Assembly: GCF_020529025.1 (NCBI RefSeq)
Contig: NZ_JACNMM010000003.1
Location: forward strand, 248,001-312,000
Reading direction: 5' to 3'
Source of the DNA: Oceaniglobus trochenteri
GTDB lineage: Bacteria > Pseudomonadota > Alphaproteobacteria > Rhodobacterales > Rhodobacteraceae
DNA: 64,000 nt
Shown: one piece after another, positions 3,869 to 32,800 of the stretch
Layout of the letters: every line of letters begins with the position of its first letter
Position numbering within the stretch: position 1 is the first letter of the stretch
Translations under genes and position numbers: made by a program
Notes under the pieces: model-generated
Told to the model about the DNA's origin: nothing
Seen by the model: only the letters and a program-made list of their open reading frames with translations
Database searches by the model: none

Positions 3869-4701
3869 TGGCCCAGCACCACCTCGCGCGTGCGCTCGTC
3901 CACCTCGGGGCGCAGACCGAACCAGCGTTCGAAGGCGGGCGCGGCCTGATAGATCAGCATGCCCAGACCATCCACCGTGGTTGCACCGAAGGCGCGGGCG
4001 CGTTGCAGGAAGGTGGTGTCAAGCGGGGTATAGACCAGGTCGGTGACCACGGCATCGGGCGACAGGCCATCCAGCGGCACGCGGAAATCGGGCTTGCCCA
4101 CCATGCCCAGCGAACTGGCATTCACCACGGTGGCGGCATCATCCAGCGTATTGCCGGCCTTGACCCAGTCATAGACCACGATTTTCGCCCCGAATTCGGC
4201 CCGCAGCGATTCCGAACGTGCCCGGGTGCGGTTCGTCAGGCGGATTTCCGGCACCCCGGCGTCGATCAGCGAGGTGATGACCGCCCGCGCCGCGCCACCC
4301 GCGCCGAAGATTGCGGCCGGCCCTGTCCGCGGATCCCAGTCGGGGGCGGATTCGCGCAGGTTCTGGATGAAGCCATAGCCATCGGTGTTGTCGGCGTGGA
4401 TCTTGCCATCGGCACGAAAGATCAGGGTATTGGCCGCCCCGATGAGCGCCGCGCGGTCTGTCACCAGGTCGGCCAGGTCAAGCACCGCTTCCTTGTGGGG
4501 GATGGTGACATTGCAGCCGACAAAGCCCATCTTCGGCATCATCCGAATGACCTCGGGGAGGTCGGCCTGCGCCACGTCCATCGGAATGTAATAGCCCTTG
4601 ATGCCCATGGTGCGCAGCCAATGCTGGTGCAACGCGGGGGAACGGCTGTGCGAGATCGGCGATCCGATGACGCCGGCGAGGGGAATTTTCACATCGCTCA
4701 T
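3865..4701 (-). CDS. aroE: Shikimate dehydrogenase
   Basis: A 278-residue NADP-dependent enzyme that reduces 3-dehydroshikimate to shikimate in aromatic amino acid synthesis. The shikimate-binding SHSRSP stretch is at residues 17-22, the catalytic Lys is K70 in TIPHK, NTDG contains the catalytic Asp near residue 107, and GAGGAARAV near residue 133 is the nucleotide-binding turn. It overlaps maf upstream and coaE downstream by 4 bases each. Confidence 0.95.
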   Translation of the reverse strand: MSDVKIPLAGVIGSPISHSRSPALHQHWLRTMGIKGYYIPMDVAQADLPEVIRMMPKMGFVGCNVTIPHKEAVLDLADLVTDRAALIGAANTLIFRADGKIHADNTDGYGFIQNLRESAPDWDPRTGPAAIFGAGGAARAVITSLIDAGVPEIRLTNRTRARSESLRAEFGAKIVVYDWVKAGNTLDDAATVVNASSLGMVGKPDFRVPLDGLSPDAVVTDLVYTPLDTTFLQRARAFGATTVDGLGMLIYQAAPAFERWFGLRPEVDERTREVVLGQ

Positions 4702-5297
4702 GATGACAGAATGCCTCTCAGGGTTAGGTAGGACAAGAGATCAAGCAACGGCAGGCCCAGGACCGTAAAGTAATCGCCCTGGACCCGACTGAACAACCGG
4801 GCGCCTTCTTCCTCAAGCTTGTATCCGCCGACCGAGTGGCGGATGCTTTCCCAGTTGCGTGAGACATAATCATCGATGAACCCGTCGGACAGGGGGCGCA
4901 TCTGCATCTGCACCACGCCCACATGGCGCCAGACCGGCTTGCCCTCGTCATATATGACCGCCGCCGACAAAAGGCGATGCCCCTGGCCCGCCAGGGCGCG
5001 CAGCTGGGCGGCGACCTCTTGGGCGTCGGCGGGTTTGGACAGGATCGTTCCCTTGAAATCAAGAACCTGGTCACAGCCGATCACCATGGCCTCGGGGCGT
5101 TTCTCGGACACCTTGCGCGCCTTGAACTGGGCAAGTGCATCGGCCACGTCACGCGGCGTCGCCTCTTCCGCAAGAAGCGAGGCGCGGATGGCGTCTTCAT
5201 CGACACGGGCGGGCAGGGTCTCGAACGTCAGTCCGGCGTTCTGCAACAACTGCCGGCGGATGGACGAGGAGGAGGCAAGGATCAGCGGGCGGGTCAT
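4698..5297 (-). CDS. maf: Maf family nucleoside triphosphate pyrophosphatase
   Basis: A 199-residue Maf/HAM1-superfamily pyrophosphatase that hydrolyses non-canonical or modified nucleotides such as m7GTP or dTTP/UTP. The N-terminal LASSSSIRRQLL motif and the GCDQVL segment with its catalytic Asp are seen; which substrate subgroup it belongs to cannot be settled by eye. It is the first gene of the minus-strand operon maf-aroE-coaE-dnaQ and directly borders the origin-like gap, so its promoter must lie inside that gap. No clear ribosome-binding site precedes the ATG. Confidence 0.93.
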   Translation of the reverse strand: MTRPLILASSSSIRRQLLQNAGLTFETLPARVDEDAIRASLLAEEATPRDVADALAQFKARKVSEKRPEAMVIGCDQVLDFKGTILSKPADAQEVAAQLRALAGQGHRLLSAAVIYDEGKPVWRHVGVVQMQMRPLSDGFIDDYVSRNWESIRHSVGGYKLEEEGARLFSRVQGDYFTVLGLPLLDLLSYLTLRGILSS

Positions 5298-5504
5298 GGG
5301 ATAAATCCGGGGATAAATCGAGGTAGAGTTGCGGGACGACTCGGATGATTCAGGGCGGCAGCGGGGTTTCGCGCGATACCGCCTGTCTTGTCACCTTTCC
5401 TCGTCGATATGTCCACCGTGCAGCGTTTGAACCGCGCCCCTGTGAACAACCTTCTTCTCCCTGTTTCCCCTGTGCTTCGCCCACAAGAATATCCACAGGT
5501 CTGA

Positions 5505-5545
5505 ATTGTCAAGTATTTGATTTTGCTTTAATAAATATGATCTAG
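5505..5545. other. AT-rich block, candidate DNA-unwinding element
   Basis: About 40 bases made almost wholly of A and T (including TTTTGCTTTAATAAATATGA at 5521-5540), sitting between the candidate DnaA boxes at 5489 and 5595. This is the lowest-GC stretch I noticed in the window. Its role in origin melting is an inference from position and composition. Confidence 0.55.
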
Positions 5546-5674
5546 GCCGATTCGTCCACAGCCAGTGGAGATTCAGGGCCCGCCGGAAACCATCTGTGGA
5601 TCATCCTTTGGATATGGCATTAATCCCCGTTATCCACCGGACCTACAAACAACATCATCTTTTCTTCTCTTTTA

Positions 5675-5680
5675 TATAAT
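5675..5680 (+). promoter_or_regulatory. Candidate -10 element of the hemJ promoter
   Basis: A perfect TATAAT at 5675-5680, 35 bases upstream of the hemJ ATG. No good -35 hexamer lies 16-18 bases upstream, so the promoter may be weak or activator-dependent. It also lies in the AT-rich right part of the origin gap. Confidence 0.4.
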
Positions 5681-5715
5681 GAGAAGAGTTCACCGGCCCG
5701 GAACAGGTGAACCCC

Positions 5716-6168
5716 ATGCAAGACCTCCTCAGCGCAGCTTATCCCTGGATCAAATCCCTGCATGTCATCGCGGTGATCTCGTGGATGGCGGGAATCTTCT
5801 ATCTGCCCCGGCTTTTCGTGCATCACATCGAAAAGGTGGCGCCCAACAGCGAGACCGACCAGTTGTTCCAGATGATGGAGCGCAAACTGCTTCGTGTCAT
5901 CATGACCCCTGCCATGATCGCCACATGGCTGTTCGGGCTGATGCTGGTTGCGATCCCCGGCGTGATCGACTGGTCGGCCATCTGGCCCTGGACCAAGGCG
6001 CTGGCGGTTGTCGGCATGACCTGGTTTCACATGTGGTGCGCGGCACAACTCAAGACCTTCGTTGCGGGCAAGGTGAACCACCCTGGAAGCTATTTTCGCA
6101 AGATGAACGAGGTTCCGACGCTTTTGATGTTCGTCATCGTCTTTTCCGTGATCGCCCGGCCGTTCTGA
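5716..6168 (+). CDS. hemJ: HemJ, protoporphyrinogen IX oxidase (membrane)
   Basis: A 150-residue integral membrane protein of the HemJ (UPF0093) family, which oxidises protoporphyrinogen IX to protoporphyrin IX in many Gram-negative bacteria lacking HemY and HemG. Four hydrophobic segments are visible, with the conserved His and Arg in the first (SLHVIAVISWMAGIFYLPR) and a conserved TWFHMW segment in the third. I used the ATG at 5716; an in-frame GTG at 5707 would add three residues. It is the first gene to the right of the origin. Three more tetrapyrrole genes (hemW, hemA, hemH) lie within the window. Confidence 0.92.
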   Translation: MQDLLSAAYPWIKSLHVIAVISWMAGIFYLPRLFVHHIEKVAPNSETDQLFQMMERKLLRVIMTPAMIATWLFGLMLVAIPGVIDWSAIWPWTKALAVVGMTWFHMWCAAQLKTFVAGKVNHPGSYFRKMNEVPTLLMFVIVFSVIARPF

Positions 6169-8881: not shown

Positions 8882-8897
8882 TGTTTCACGTGGAACA
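8882..8897. promoter_or_regulatory. parS centromere site 1 (over the mnmG start)
   Basis: TGTTTCACGTGGAACA is a 16-base near-palindrome that differs from the perfect ParB target TGTTTCACGTGAAACA by one base. It lies between the mnmG Shine-Dalgarno sequence (AAGGAG, 8876-8881) and the first codons of mnmG, and contains the likely GTG start at 8890. ParB encoded at 12200-13099 should bind and nucleate here. Confidence 0.88.
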
Positions 8898-10759: not shown

Positions 10760-11389
10760 ATGAGATCGGAGTTTGAAGACCTTGTCCGCGTTGCTCCGGA
10801 TGTTTCACGTGAAACATTTGAGAAGATGGCAATCTACGCTGACCTACTGAAAAAATGGAACCCGAAGATCAATCTCGTATCGGGCCCAACATTGGATGAG
10901 ATTTGGCATCGCCATATTCTGGATTCCGCTCAGATCTATCGCCATCTGCCCCACGATACCGCCTCATTGGTCGACTTCGGTTCGGGCGGAGGGTTTCCGG
11001 GGATGGTTCTTGCGATCCTGGCTGGACGATCGAAGCCGGATATCAAGATTACACTGGTGGACAGCGATCAACGCAAGTGCGCTTTTCTCCGAAATGTGGC
11101 GCGCGAGACGGCCACTTCGGTTGAAGTAGCCGCGGCCCGGATTGCCGATCTGCCCGCCTTCAATGCGTCGGTGGTGACAGCCCGAGCTTTGGCACCGCTG
11201 ACCTCGTTGATTGGTTTCGCCGATCATCACCTGGCGGAAGGCGGGATCGCCTTTTTCCTCAAGGGACAGCAGGCGGAGAATGAGTTGGCCGAAGCCAGGG
11301 TGCGATGGTTTTTTGATGTCGAGGCCCTGCCCAGTGTTACTGACAGTGGTGGATCCATTTTGAAGGTCGAGAATATCAATGCACGCTGA
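10760..11389 (+). CDS. rsmG: 16S rRNA (guanine-N7)-methyltransferase RsmG
   Basis: A 209-residue RsmG (GidB) that methylates G527 of 16S rRNA; loss can give low-level streptomycin resistance. The SAM-binding motif VDFGSGGGFPGM near residues 72-83 is typical, as is the N-terminal LLKKWNPKINLVS segment. I chose the ATG at 10760, one base after the mnmG stop. parS site 2 lies inside the coding sequence and encodes VSRET. The 3' end overlaps parA by 11 bases. Confidence 0.95.
   Translation: MRSEFEDLVRVAPDVSRETFEKMAIYADLLKKWNPKINLVSGPTLDEIWHRHILDSAQIYRHLPHDTASLVDFGSGGGFPGMVLAILAGRSKPDIKITLVDSDQRKCAFLRNVARETATSVEVAAARIADLPAFNASVVTARALAPLTSLIGFADHHLAEGGIAFFLKGQQAENELAEARVRWFFDVEALPSVTDSGGSILKVENINAR
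10801..10816. promoter_or_regulatory. parS centromere site 2 (perfect palindrome, inside rsmG)
   Basis: TGTTTCACGTGAAACA is an exact match to the canonical 16-base parS palindrome. It is embedded in the rsmG reading frame about 40 bases after the start codon and about 1.4 kb upstream of parB. Confidence 0.96.
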
Positions 11390-12185
11390 TCCAACACGCG
11401 CACCGAGTGCGCGCATCATTGCGGTTGTGAACCAGAAGGGTGGGGTGGGTAAGACGACAACCGCCATCAATCTCGGCGCTGCATTGGCCGAAGATGGTTT
11501 CAATGTCTTGATCGTCGATCTCGATCCCCAAGGAAATGCATCGACAGGGTTGGGAATTGCGCCGGAGAGCAGGCAGCTCAGCAGTTATGATCTTCTCCTT
11601 GATGAGGCGGAACTTGCCGATGTCATTTACCCGTCGCAACTGGAAGGCCTCTGGATTACACCAGCGACGGCCGATCTCAGTTCGGCCGATATCGAGATGG
11701 TGGCAAACGAGAAGCGGAGTTTCCTGCTTTATGACGCCCTGCGCCAACCGGCGATTGATCGTTATGCCTTTGACTACGTCCTGATCGACTGCCCGCCATC
11801 ACTCAGCCTCCTGACAGTCAACGCTATGGTGGCCGCGCATTCCGTTCTTGTTCCGCTGCAAAGTGAGTTCTTTGCTTTGGAAGGTCTGTCGCAATTGATG
11901 CTGACGATCCGGGAGGTTCGCCAGGTTGCAAACCCCGATCTGCGTATCGAAGGGGTGGTGTTGACGATGTACGATGGCCGGAACCGGCTGGCGCAACAGG
12001 TAGAAAGTGACTCGCGTGAAACCCTGGGTGACCTGGTGTTCAAGACAGTCATTCCGAGGAACGTGAGGGTCAGTGAGGCCCCTTCCTATGCGCAATCGGT
12101 CCTCACTTATGATAGCGGATCGAAGGGCAGCCTTGCCTATCGGGCGTTGGCCGAAGAACTGGTTCGCAGGCACCATGAAAGTTGA
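11379..12185 (+). CDS. parA: Chromosome partitioning ATPase ParA
   Basis: A 268-residue ParA/Soj-type Walker ATPase that forms DNA-bound gradients used to move ParB-parS complexes. The deviant Walker A motif KGGVGKTT is near residues 21-28, the Walker B region YVLIDCPPS near residue 135, and the conserved VVLTMYDGRNRLAQQV stretch is in the second half. It overlaps rsmG by 11 bases and is followed after 14 bases by parB. Confidence 0.96.
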   Translation: MHADPTRAPSARIIAVVNQKGGVGKTTTAINLGAALAEDGFNVLIVDLDPQGNASTGLGIAPESRQLSSYDLLLDEAELADVIYPSQLEGLWITPATADLSSADIEMVANEKRSFLLYDALRQPAIDRYAFDYVLIDCPPSLSLLTVNAMVAAHSVLVPLQSEFFALEGLSQLMLTIREVRQVANPDLRIEGVVLTMYDGRNRLAQQVESDSRETLGDLVFKTVIPRNVRVSEAPSYAQSVLTYDSGSKGSLAYRALAEELVRRHHES

Positions 12186-12199
12186 ACGGAGAGAGACCT

Positions 12200-13099
12200 A
12201 TGTCGGATAAGAAGAATGAACGCCGGGGGCTGGGCCGTGGTCTGTCGGCCCTGATGGCGGATGTGGGTGTCGCGGATGAGCGTCAGAACGCCAACCGTCC
12301 AACGCGTCGTGCCGATCAACTTATTCCGGTCGAACGGATTGTACCCAACCCCGATCAGCCGCGTCGAACCTTTGCACCTGAGCTCTTGGATGAACTCGCT
12401 GCCTCGATCAAGGAGAAGGGGGTCATCCAGCCGCTGATCCTGCGTCAGAATCCCAGGAATCCTGAGCAGTACGAGATTGTCGCGGGTGAACGCCGGTGGC
12501 GCGCCGCGCAGATGGCCAAGGTTCATGCACTGCCGGCCATCATCCGAGAACTCGACGATACCGAGGTCTTGGAACTCGCGATCATTGAAAACATTCAGCG
12601 CAGCGATCTGAACCCCGTGGAAGAAGCGGCTGGCTTTCGCCAGCTGATGGACAAGTTCGGCCATACGCAGGAGAAGCTGGCCGAGGCGTTGGGGAAAAGC
12701 CGTAGCCATATTGCCAACCTGTTGCGTTTGCTAAACCTACCAGAGGATGTGCTGGCATTGCTGCGTGACGGCAAGATTTCCATGGGGCATGCGCGGGCCT
12801 TGATTACCGCTGACGATCCGTCGGCGCTCGCGAAGATCGTCGTTGCCAAGGGGCTTTCGGTGCGTCAGACGGAAGCCTTGGTCAAGGCACCGAAGGGCGG
12901 CGACGTTCCACGTGAAACAAAACCGAAGCGTGAAAAAGATGCTGATACCCGTGCACTGGAGCAGGATCTGGCCGCTGCCGTTGGCATGTCGGTGAGCATC
13001 GACCATGACACGGGAATGGAATCGGGCAGGGTTTCCATTCGTTATGCGACGCTTGAAGAGTTGGACGAGCTTTGCCGGATGCTGTCGTCTGGTCGCTAA
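12200..13099 (+). CDS. parB: Chromosome partitioning protein ParB
   Basis: A 299-residue ParB/Spo0J family CTPase and parS-binding clamp. The N terminus has the ParA-stimulating basic peptide RRGLGRGLSALM, then the ParB/Srx domain (about 35-125) with the CTP-binding GERRWRAA motif, a central helix-turn-helix domain (LAEALGKSRSHIANLLRLL), a linker, and a C-terminal dimerisation domain. GGAGAG at 12188-12193 favours the ATG at 12200 over an upstream TTG. parS site 3 lies in the linker-coding part. The stop overlaps that of the convergent hemW by 3-4 bases. Confidence 0.96.
   Translation: MSDKKNERRGLGRGLSALMADVGVADERQNANRPTRRADQLIPVERIVPNPDQPRRTFAPELLDELAASIKEKGVIQPLILRQNPRNPEQYEIVAGERRWRAAQMAKVHALPAIIRELDDTEVLELAIIENIQRSDLNPVEEAAGFRQLMDKFGHTQEKLAEALGKSRSHIANLLRLLNLPEDVLALLRDGKISMGHARALITADDPSALAKIVVAKGLSVRQTEALVKAPKGGDVPRETKPKREKDADTRALEQDLAAAVGMSVSIDHDTGMESGRVSIRYATLEELDELCRMLSSGR
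12904..12919. promoter_or_regulatory. parS centromere site 3 (inside parB)
   Basis: CGTTCCACGTGAAACA matches the parS palindrome core GTTYCACGTGRAAC with one asymmetric half-site and a C in place of the outer T. It lies in the parB linker region and encodes VPRET. It could contribute to autoregulation as well as loading, which is an inference. Confidence 0.82.
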
Positions 13100-31801: not shown

Positions 31802-32800
31802 ATGACGCTTGGATCGAAAATCGCCTGGGACGACACTGTCCTGCCCTTTCAGCTTGACCGGTCCGATATTCGCGGACGGGTGGCACGCCTTGACGGCGTG
31901 TTGGACAACGTGTTGGAGCAGCACGATTATCCCCCCCAGATCGAGGCGCTGGTGGCCGAGATGGCGCTGCTGAACGCACTGATCGGCCAGACCATCAAGC
32001 TGCGCTGGAAACTGTCGTTGCAGGTGCGCGGCGACGGGCCTGCACGCCTGATCGCGACCGATTACTATGCCCCCGGCGCCGATGGCAGCCCGGCCCGCAT
32101 CCGGGCCTGGGCCAGTTTCGACGAAGACAGGCTGGAGTCGGGCAAGCCCGCCTATGACATGATCGGCAACGGCTATTTCGCCCTTCTGCTGGATCAGGGG
32201 CAGGGCAACATGCCCTACCAGGGGATCACGCCGATTGCCGGCGGGTCGCTGGCGGCCTGTGCACAGACCTATTTCGCCCAGTCCGAGCAGTTGCCCACCC
32301 GCTTTGCGCTGACCTTCGGGCGCAGCCAGGTGCCGGGCGAAAACGAAAGCTGGCGCGCGGGCGGCGTGATGCTGCAACATATGCCCAAGGCGTCGCCCTC
32401 GGTTGCCGGGGATGCCACGGGCGACGAAGGCCTGCTGAACGCCGAGGATATCCTTGACGGCGACGAGGGCGAAAACTGGCTGCGGGCCAATACCCTGCTG
32501 GATACCGTCGAGGATATCGAATTGATCGGCCCCTCGGTGCAGCCGACCGACCTTCTGGTGCGATTGTTCCACGAGGAACAACCCCGCGTCTTCGATCCGC
32601 AGCCCGTGACCTTTGGTTGTGGCTGCTCATCGGACAAGGTGCGCCAAAGCCTTTCGATCTATTCGGCCCGCGACATCGCCACGATGACGACCGAGGAAGG
32701 GATCGTCACCGCCGATTGCCAGTTCTGCGGCGCCCATTACGAGTTCGACCCCAAGACCCTGGGGTTCGAGGCCGAGGTGTCGGATGACGGCAACGCGTGA
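31802..32800 (+). CDS. hslO: Hsp33 redox-regulated holdase chaperone
   Basis: A 332-residue Hsp33, a chaperone switched on by oxidation of a zinc-bound Cys cluster. The C-terminal cluster is present as CGC in FGCGCSSD and CQFC, giving the CxC-x27-32-CxxC pattern. N-terminal IEALVAEMALLNALIG and GGSLAACAQTYF segments match the substrate-binding domain. AAGGA precedes the start. The 3' end overlaps the next Nudix gene by 17 bases, so hslO-nudL-cca form an operon. Confidence 0.94.
   Translation: MTLGSKIAWDDTVLPFQLDRSDIRGRVARLDGVLDNVLEQHDYPPQIEALVAEMALLNALIGQTIKLRWKLSLQVRGDGPARLIATDYYAPGADGSPARIRAWASFDEDRLESGKPAYDMIGNGYFALLLDQGQGNMPYQGITPIAGGSLAACAQTYFAQSEQLPTRFALTFGRSQVPGENESWRAGGVMLQHMPKASPSVAGDATGDEGLLNAEDILDGDEGENWLRANTLLDTVEDIELIGPSVQPTDLLVRLFHEEQPRVFDPQPVTFGCGCSSDKVRQSLSIYSARDIATMTTEEGIVTADCQFCGAHYEFDPKTLGFEAEVSDDGNA

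Follow-up and report, generated by a model that had tools for sequence, protein, structure and literature searches.

The window analysed here is a stretch of 64 kb from the genome of Oceaniglobus trochenteri (C24:248001-312000, C24 being a contig of 607,552 bp), and positions given below are those of the window unless a contig is named. Its candidate chromosomal replication origin, oriC, is the whole intergenic region at 5298..5715, on neither strand in particular, which begins at position 253,298 of C24, runs up to an ATG at 5716, and is marked out by a turn in strand composition, the densest DnaA-box cluster of the contig and a gene order shared across the family. This gap lies between maf (4698..5297, minus strand, PF02545) and hemJ (5707..6168, plus strand, PF03653), and measures 409-418 bp according to whether GTG 5707 or ATG 5716 is chosen as the hemJ start. 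The Pfam assignments bear out the divergent flanks described in the original prediction, with maf, aroE, coaE and a dnaQ-type exonuclease to the left of the gap, and hemJ, rho, mnmE, mnmG, parA and parB to the right. The parA and parB genes (Pfam) occupy 11379..13099 on the plus strand. A scan with a 16-mer that we take to be the parS-type pattern returned exact plus-strand matches at 8882..8897 (TGTTTCACGTGGAACA) and 10801..10816 (TGTTTCACGTGAAACA, inside rsmG) and, inside parB, a plus-strand match with one mismatch at 12904..12919; the closeness of parAB and parS (3-7 kb from the gap) was correctly foreseen. The match at 8882..8897 overlaps the mnmG start (GTG 8881), so its bases also code, and a fourth parS-like 16-mer, TGTTCCACGAGGAACA, with one mismatch, is found at 32565-32580, 27 kb from the gap. 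There is, as had been noted, no hemE at the locus: its sole match in the genome is C24:548838-549854, 295 kb away. A second Maf-family gene is present on another contig of this genome (G000:C31:236186-236728).

Relatives were compared through a family set of 80 loci out of 545 relatives (HemJ matches). In 78 of the 80 loci maf and hemJ are divergent neighbours, 341-443 bp apart, and because so many relatives share the order, the suggestion that the layout is a local variant was dropped; it is the family norm. The gap alignment omits two loci, L079, whose sequence starts 93 bases short of hemJ, and L107, which has no maf match, and so comprises 79 gaps (this window and 78 relatives).

Seven DnaA-box-like sequences are found in the gap when up to two mismatches to TTATCCACA are allowed. 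Three have at most one mismatch, namely ATATCCACA at 5489..5497 (plus strand, one mismatch, poorly conserved at that alignment position), TGATCCACA at 5595..5603 (minus strand, one mismatch, presumably the Caulobacter G-box form), and a plus-strand box at 5630-5638. The other four have two mismatches: 5308-5316, which belongs to a weak maf-proximal pair (5298..5320, minus strand, family consensus TGGATAANCCTGTGGANAA) that has diverged here; TTGTTCACA at 5441..5449 (minus strand), where the family columns show TGTGGANAA; TCGTCCACA at 5552..5560 (plus strand); and ATATCCAAA at 5607..5615 (minus strand). The box cluster that had been claimed is therefore real, but its count of four boxes one base off consensus comes down to three. 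When C24 was scanned over its 607,552 bp in 409-bp windows with a step of 20, the gap was the sole window with three boxes within one mismatch (contig mean, 0.03), and at up to two mismatches it held 7, against 5 in the runner-up. Two other measures did not distinguish it: a scan for the G-box form TGATCCACA, allowing one mismatch, gave 1 match in the gap, where other places of C24 each have 3, and the 13 perfect TTATCCACA boxes of the genome all lie outside the gap. The gaps of two relatives also hold their box clusters, with 6 boxes within one mismatch in G008 (next, 2) and 12 within two (next, 8), and 5 in G018 (next, 3). The 79 family gaps together contain 229 boxes within one mismatch, at least one in every gap, compared with a shuffle mean of 9.2, and 41 perfect boxes in 32 gaps, compared with 0.2 in shuffles; the gap sequences are related by descent, so these comparisons show an excess and not independent events. 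As at a replication origin, the boxes are clustered beyond chance and have AT-rich DNA beside them, here in two stretches.

The gap also lies close to the cumulative GC-skew minimum of its contig. On C24, one of the 33 contigs and the one that was read, cumulative GC skew is V-shaped, with a minimum at 243,921, a flat course to about 256,000 and a rise thereafter; the gap is 9.4 kb away from this minimum and 7.4 kb from the keto minimum (245,910). The original prediction had staked itself on the place of the skew minimum, and the outcome on this contig was in its favour. In G008, a closed genome of the same family (3,558,757 bp), a contiguous reading of 400 kb placed the GC minimum at 3,475,899, 1.6 kb from the start of hemJ (3,477,020-3,477,460), and the keto minimum 15 kb away. 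Twenty samples taken round the G008 chromosome showed one switch of each sign, and the maf-side samples at 10 kb (-0.024) and 190 kb (about 0) were not positive as expected there. A switch near 190-370 kb, as the coarse samples might be read, was rejected, since the contiguous reading puts the minimum beside hemJ. The two minima of G018 are 18 kb (GC) and 76 kb (keto) away from hemJ.

Within the 79 aligned gaps, conservation is best at the hemJ end, which carries a box pair (consensus TAATCCACA..ATCCACAG), CCCTACA, CATCATC and a T-rich tract. In the window this conserved core, delimited by the gap alignment, is the tandem DnaA-box-like pair TTAATCCCC (5620-5628) and TTATCCACC (5630-5638), together 5620..5638 on the plus strand. 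Beside the pair stands the trio-like sequence CCTACAAACAACATCATC (5642..5659, plus strand, CCTAC...CATCATC), the most strongly conserved stretch of the gap, and then the T-rich tract (5658..5682, plus strand), proposed from the alignment and its AT content as the duplex unwinding element. Scanned by eye for trios, the order is box pair, one canonical trio, then CATCATC; the last is exact in 57 of the 79 gaps, and some relatives, e.g., L106 and G051, have CTACTAC at the same place.

The AT-rich block between boxes to which attention had first been drawn does exist, with 22 of 25 bases A/T from 5514, but is more plausibly an IHF region, and it is probably not the main site of unwinding. A consensus scan predicts an IHF-type site on the minus strand within the block (5510..5522), an exact match to WATCAANNNNTTR, which we take to be the IHF consensus. 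Matches with at most one mismatch number 92 in the 79 gaps (shuffle mean 48, maximum 56), 58 of which have one, and they are most frequent in the bins 180-209 bp before hemJ; this family-wide excess is a modest signal. Given the exact site in the block and the excess of such sites in the family, we infer that the block serves for bending and the T-rich tract for unwinding. It is less likely, although far from negligible, that this is oriC but that the duplex opens at the AT-rich block (about 5505-5545) and not at the T-rich tract. The block is slightly richer in A/T in this window than the second AT-rich stretch, which begins at 5657-5661 (20/25), and the most AT-rich 25-mer falls 150-230 bp before hemJ in 29 of the 79 gaps; it falls within 75 bp of hemJ in 49, however, and conservation of the block is low, with a mean column top of 0.53 (5508-5525) and 0.39 (5526-5590), compared with 0.68 and 0.76 for the core and 0.70 for the T-rich tract.

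Sites for other regulators were also sought. CtrA control in the style of Caulobacter was rejected: unlike the Caulobacter crescentus origin Cori, with five CtrA sites, the window's gap has no exact TTAA-N7-TTAA and a single match with one mismatch (5517), although the family shows a modest excess (6 of 79 gaps have an exact site, compared with 0.7 in shuffles; for sites with one mismatch the figures are 52 and 28.8). Four GANTC sites occur in the window's gap, at 5338, 5347, 5549 and 5570. Over the 79 family gaps GANTC is less frequent than in shuffled sequence (85 versus 135.5), and so is not enriched family-wide.

Gene order in more distant relatives places the gap in a wider context. In a class set of 95 out of 115 genomes (those left out had no HemJ match or were second copies or pieces of a family), 66 of the 95 with HemJ have both hemE, on the same strand, and DUF299/COG1806, on the opposite strand, within 8 kb upstream of hemJ. 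Boxes were examined in 18 of 20 fetched class loci, G039 and G050 being left out for want of DUF299. The gap between DUF299 and hemE holds one or more boxes within one mismatch in 16 of the 18, and none in two, and it is the site of the best box cluster of the locus in 12. DUF299/COG1806 was not found in the present genome by a search that was positive in controls including Caulobacter vibrioides. Among 14 loci of the same genus and family (HemJ match below 1e-35), maf directly adjoins hemJ in 11, with gaps of 372-420 bp, one (G013) is unresolved, and two keep older neighbours. In G009 (L263 10128-12994) the order is maf-DUF299, the gap, then hemE-hemJ, and in G006 (L135 258-1950) it is maf-DUF299, the gap, then hemJ, hemE having gone from the locus. 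G050, from another family (L211), has maf facing hemE, with no DUF299 found in the genome, so either neighbour can go without the other. Since G009 keeps both neighbours and G006 only DUF299, the comparison points to an origin that stayed where it was as DUF299 and hemE were lost. The position of the origin would then have outlived the loss of both of its usual class-wide neighbours.

The same loci bear on whether this is an origin at all. A divergent gap might be merely a promoter region under DnaA control, with the boxes and core acting as operator or leader and oriC lying elsewhere, and the CATCATC motif does lie upstream of the hemJ start, at a median distance of 54 bp. In G009, however, the box-pair core (TAATCCACGCTATCCACCGGCC) precedes hemE, with DUF299 opposite, so the core belongs with the origin and not with hemJ; the core as a hemJ promoter was rejected on this ground, and with the skew turn and box counts also singling out the maf-hemJ gap, a purely regulatory role is very improbable. 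Least likely of all is an oriC some kilobases off in another gap (e.g., near dnaA, between hemJ and rho, or at the par operon), for which the breadth of the skew minima would leave room (in C24, G008 and G018, respectively, the GC minima are 9.4, 1.6 and 18 kb off and those of keto skew 7, 15 and 76 kb), but dnaA is 112 kb from the gap, the 4 kb at dnaA, the 4 kb at hemE and the hemJ-rho gap are all without a box within one mismatch, and no other 409-bp window of C24 has three such boxes.

In the sequence, the origin is supported by the turn in strand composition, by the cluster of DnaA boxes and by a core conserved across the family. The maf-hemJ gap is accordingly to be regarded, on sequence grounds, as very probably the chromosomal oriC; skew, boxes and family synteny agree with the original prediction on this point, and the origin of the O. 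trochenteri genome is narrowed to about 400 bp. Initiation here could proceed as follows. DnaA-ATP would fill the boxes across the gap, and IHF would bend the DNA at 5510-5522, so that the boxes near maf are drawn over to the hemJ side. A DnaA filament could then start from the tandem boxes at 5620-5638, extend across CCTAC...CATCATC and melt the T-rich tract at 5658-5682, where the helicase would be loaded. Two forks would depart, one over maf-aroE-coaE-dnaQ and the other over hemJ-rho-mnmEG-parAB, and ParB on the parS sites would presumably segregate the copies.

An oriC at this place appears ordinary for the Rhodobacteraceae, and is well supported by the sequence. According to one report, oriC beside maf is conserved in the family per DoriC, and the Ketogulonicigenium vulgare Hbe602 oriC (DoriC/Ori-Finder), predicted from skew and DnaA boxes, is directly beside maf, as here (PMC4793288). 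No difference from the present gap was found in that account (PMC4793288), and the gap is one more member of the same group. A survey placed oriC in 101 strains, and not in eight, by means of Ori-Finder, skew and parAB (PMC6699656), and two further studies have origins placed by skew, Ori-Finder or parAB (PMC6315104; PMC8116508). The traits of a Rhodobacteraceae-type oriC taken from this literature (PMC4793288; PMC6699656), a position beside maf and parAB near, are both found here. The position was thus already in print for the family, and the addition is mainly a sharper map of the likely working parts; the conserved core could help to locate oriC in those draft genomes of the Rhodobacteraceae for which prediction gives an ambiguous answer.

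The hemJ end of the gap may be compared with the basal unwinding system (BUS) of Bacillus subtilis oriC, which, according to two accounts, likewise has tandem DnaA boxes, a short spacer and a stretch of trinucleotide repeats (PMC6669920; PMC8287927). In the present gap, T-rich DNA follows the trinucleotide stretch. Unlike B. subtilis with its repeated 3′-GAT-5′ trios, the gap has one CTA (3′-GAT-5′ on the other strand), and then CATCATC (PMC6669920; PMC8287927). We suggest, tentatively and as a possibility with the balance somewhat against it, that the Rhodobacteraceae unwinding module is a diverged BUS, in which tandem weak boxes of the type TTAATCC[A/C]CA are combined with CATCATC in place of canonical GAT trios, and that, once hemE had been lost, the melting site came to form the leader of hemJ. 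If so, transcription of hemJ, for haem synthesis, would cross the origin. No paper naming the hemJ-side core was found in the open-licence literature, which was mostly surveyed without full text.

In gene order the gap has a counterpart in Cori. Cori and the present gap share their place in the order maf-(DUF299)|gap|(hemE)-hemJ-rho, which is the order of the class genomes. The flanking genes themselves differ, since a search of this genome found no COG1806/DUF299 and hemE stands 295 kb off; the syntenic position is the same. By the published description, C. crescentus Cori sits between hemE and CC_0001/COG1806 and, like the present region, is a gap of some 400 bp that holds DnaA boxes as well as an IHF-type site (PMC1914354), the last predicted here from the exact consensus match at 5510-5522. 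Judged by gene order, the maf-hemJ gap corresponds in position to Cori, with DUF299/COG1806 and hemE gone from the locus in most of the Rhodobacteraceae.
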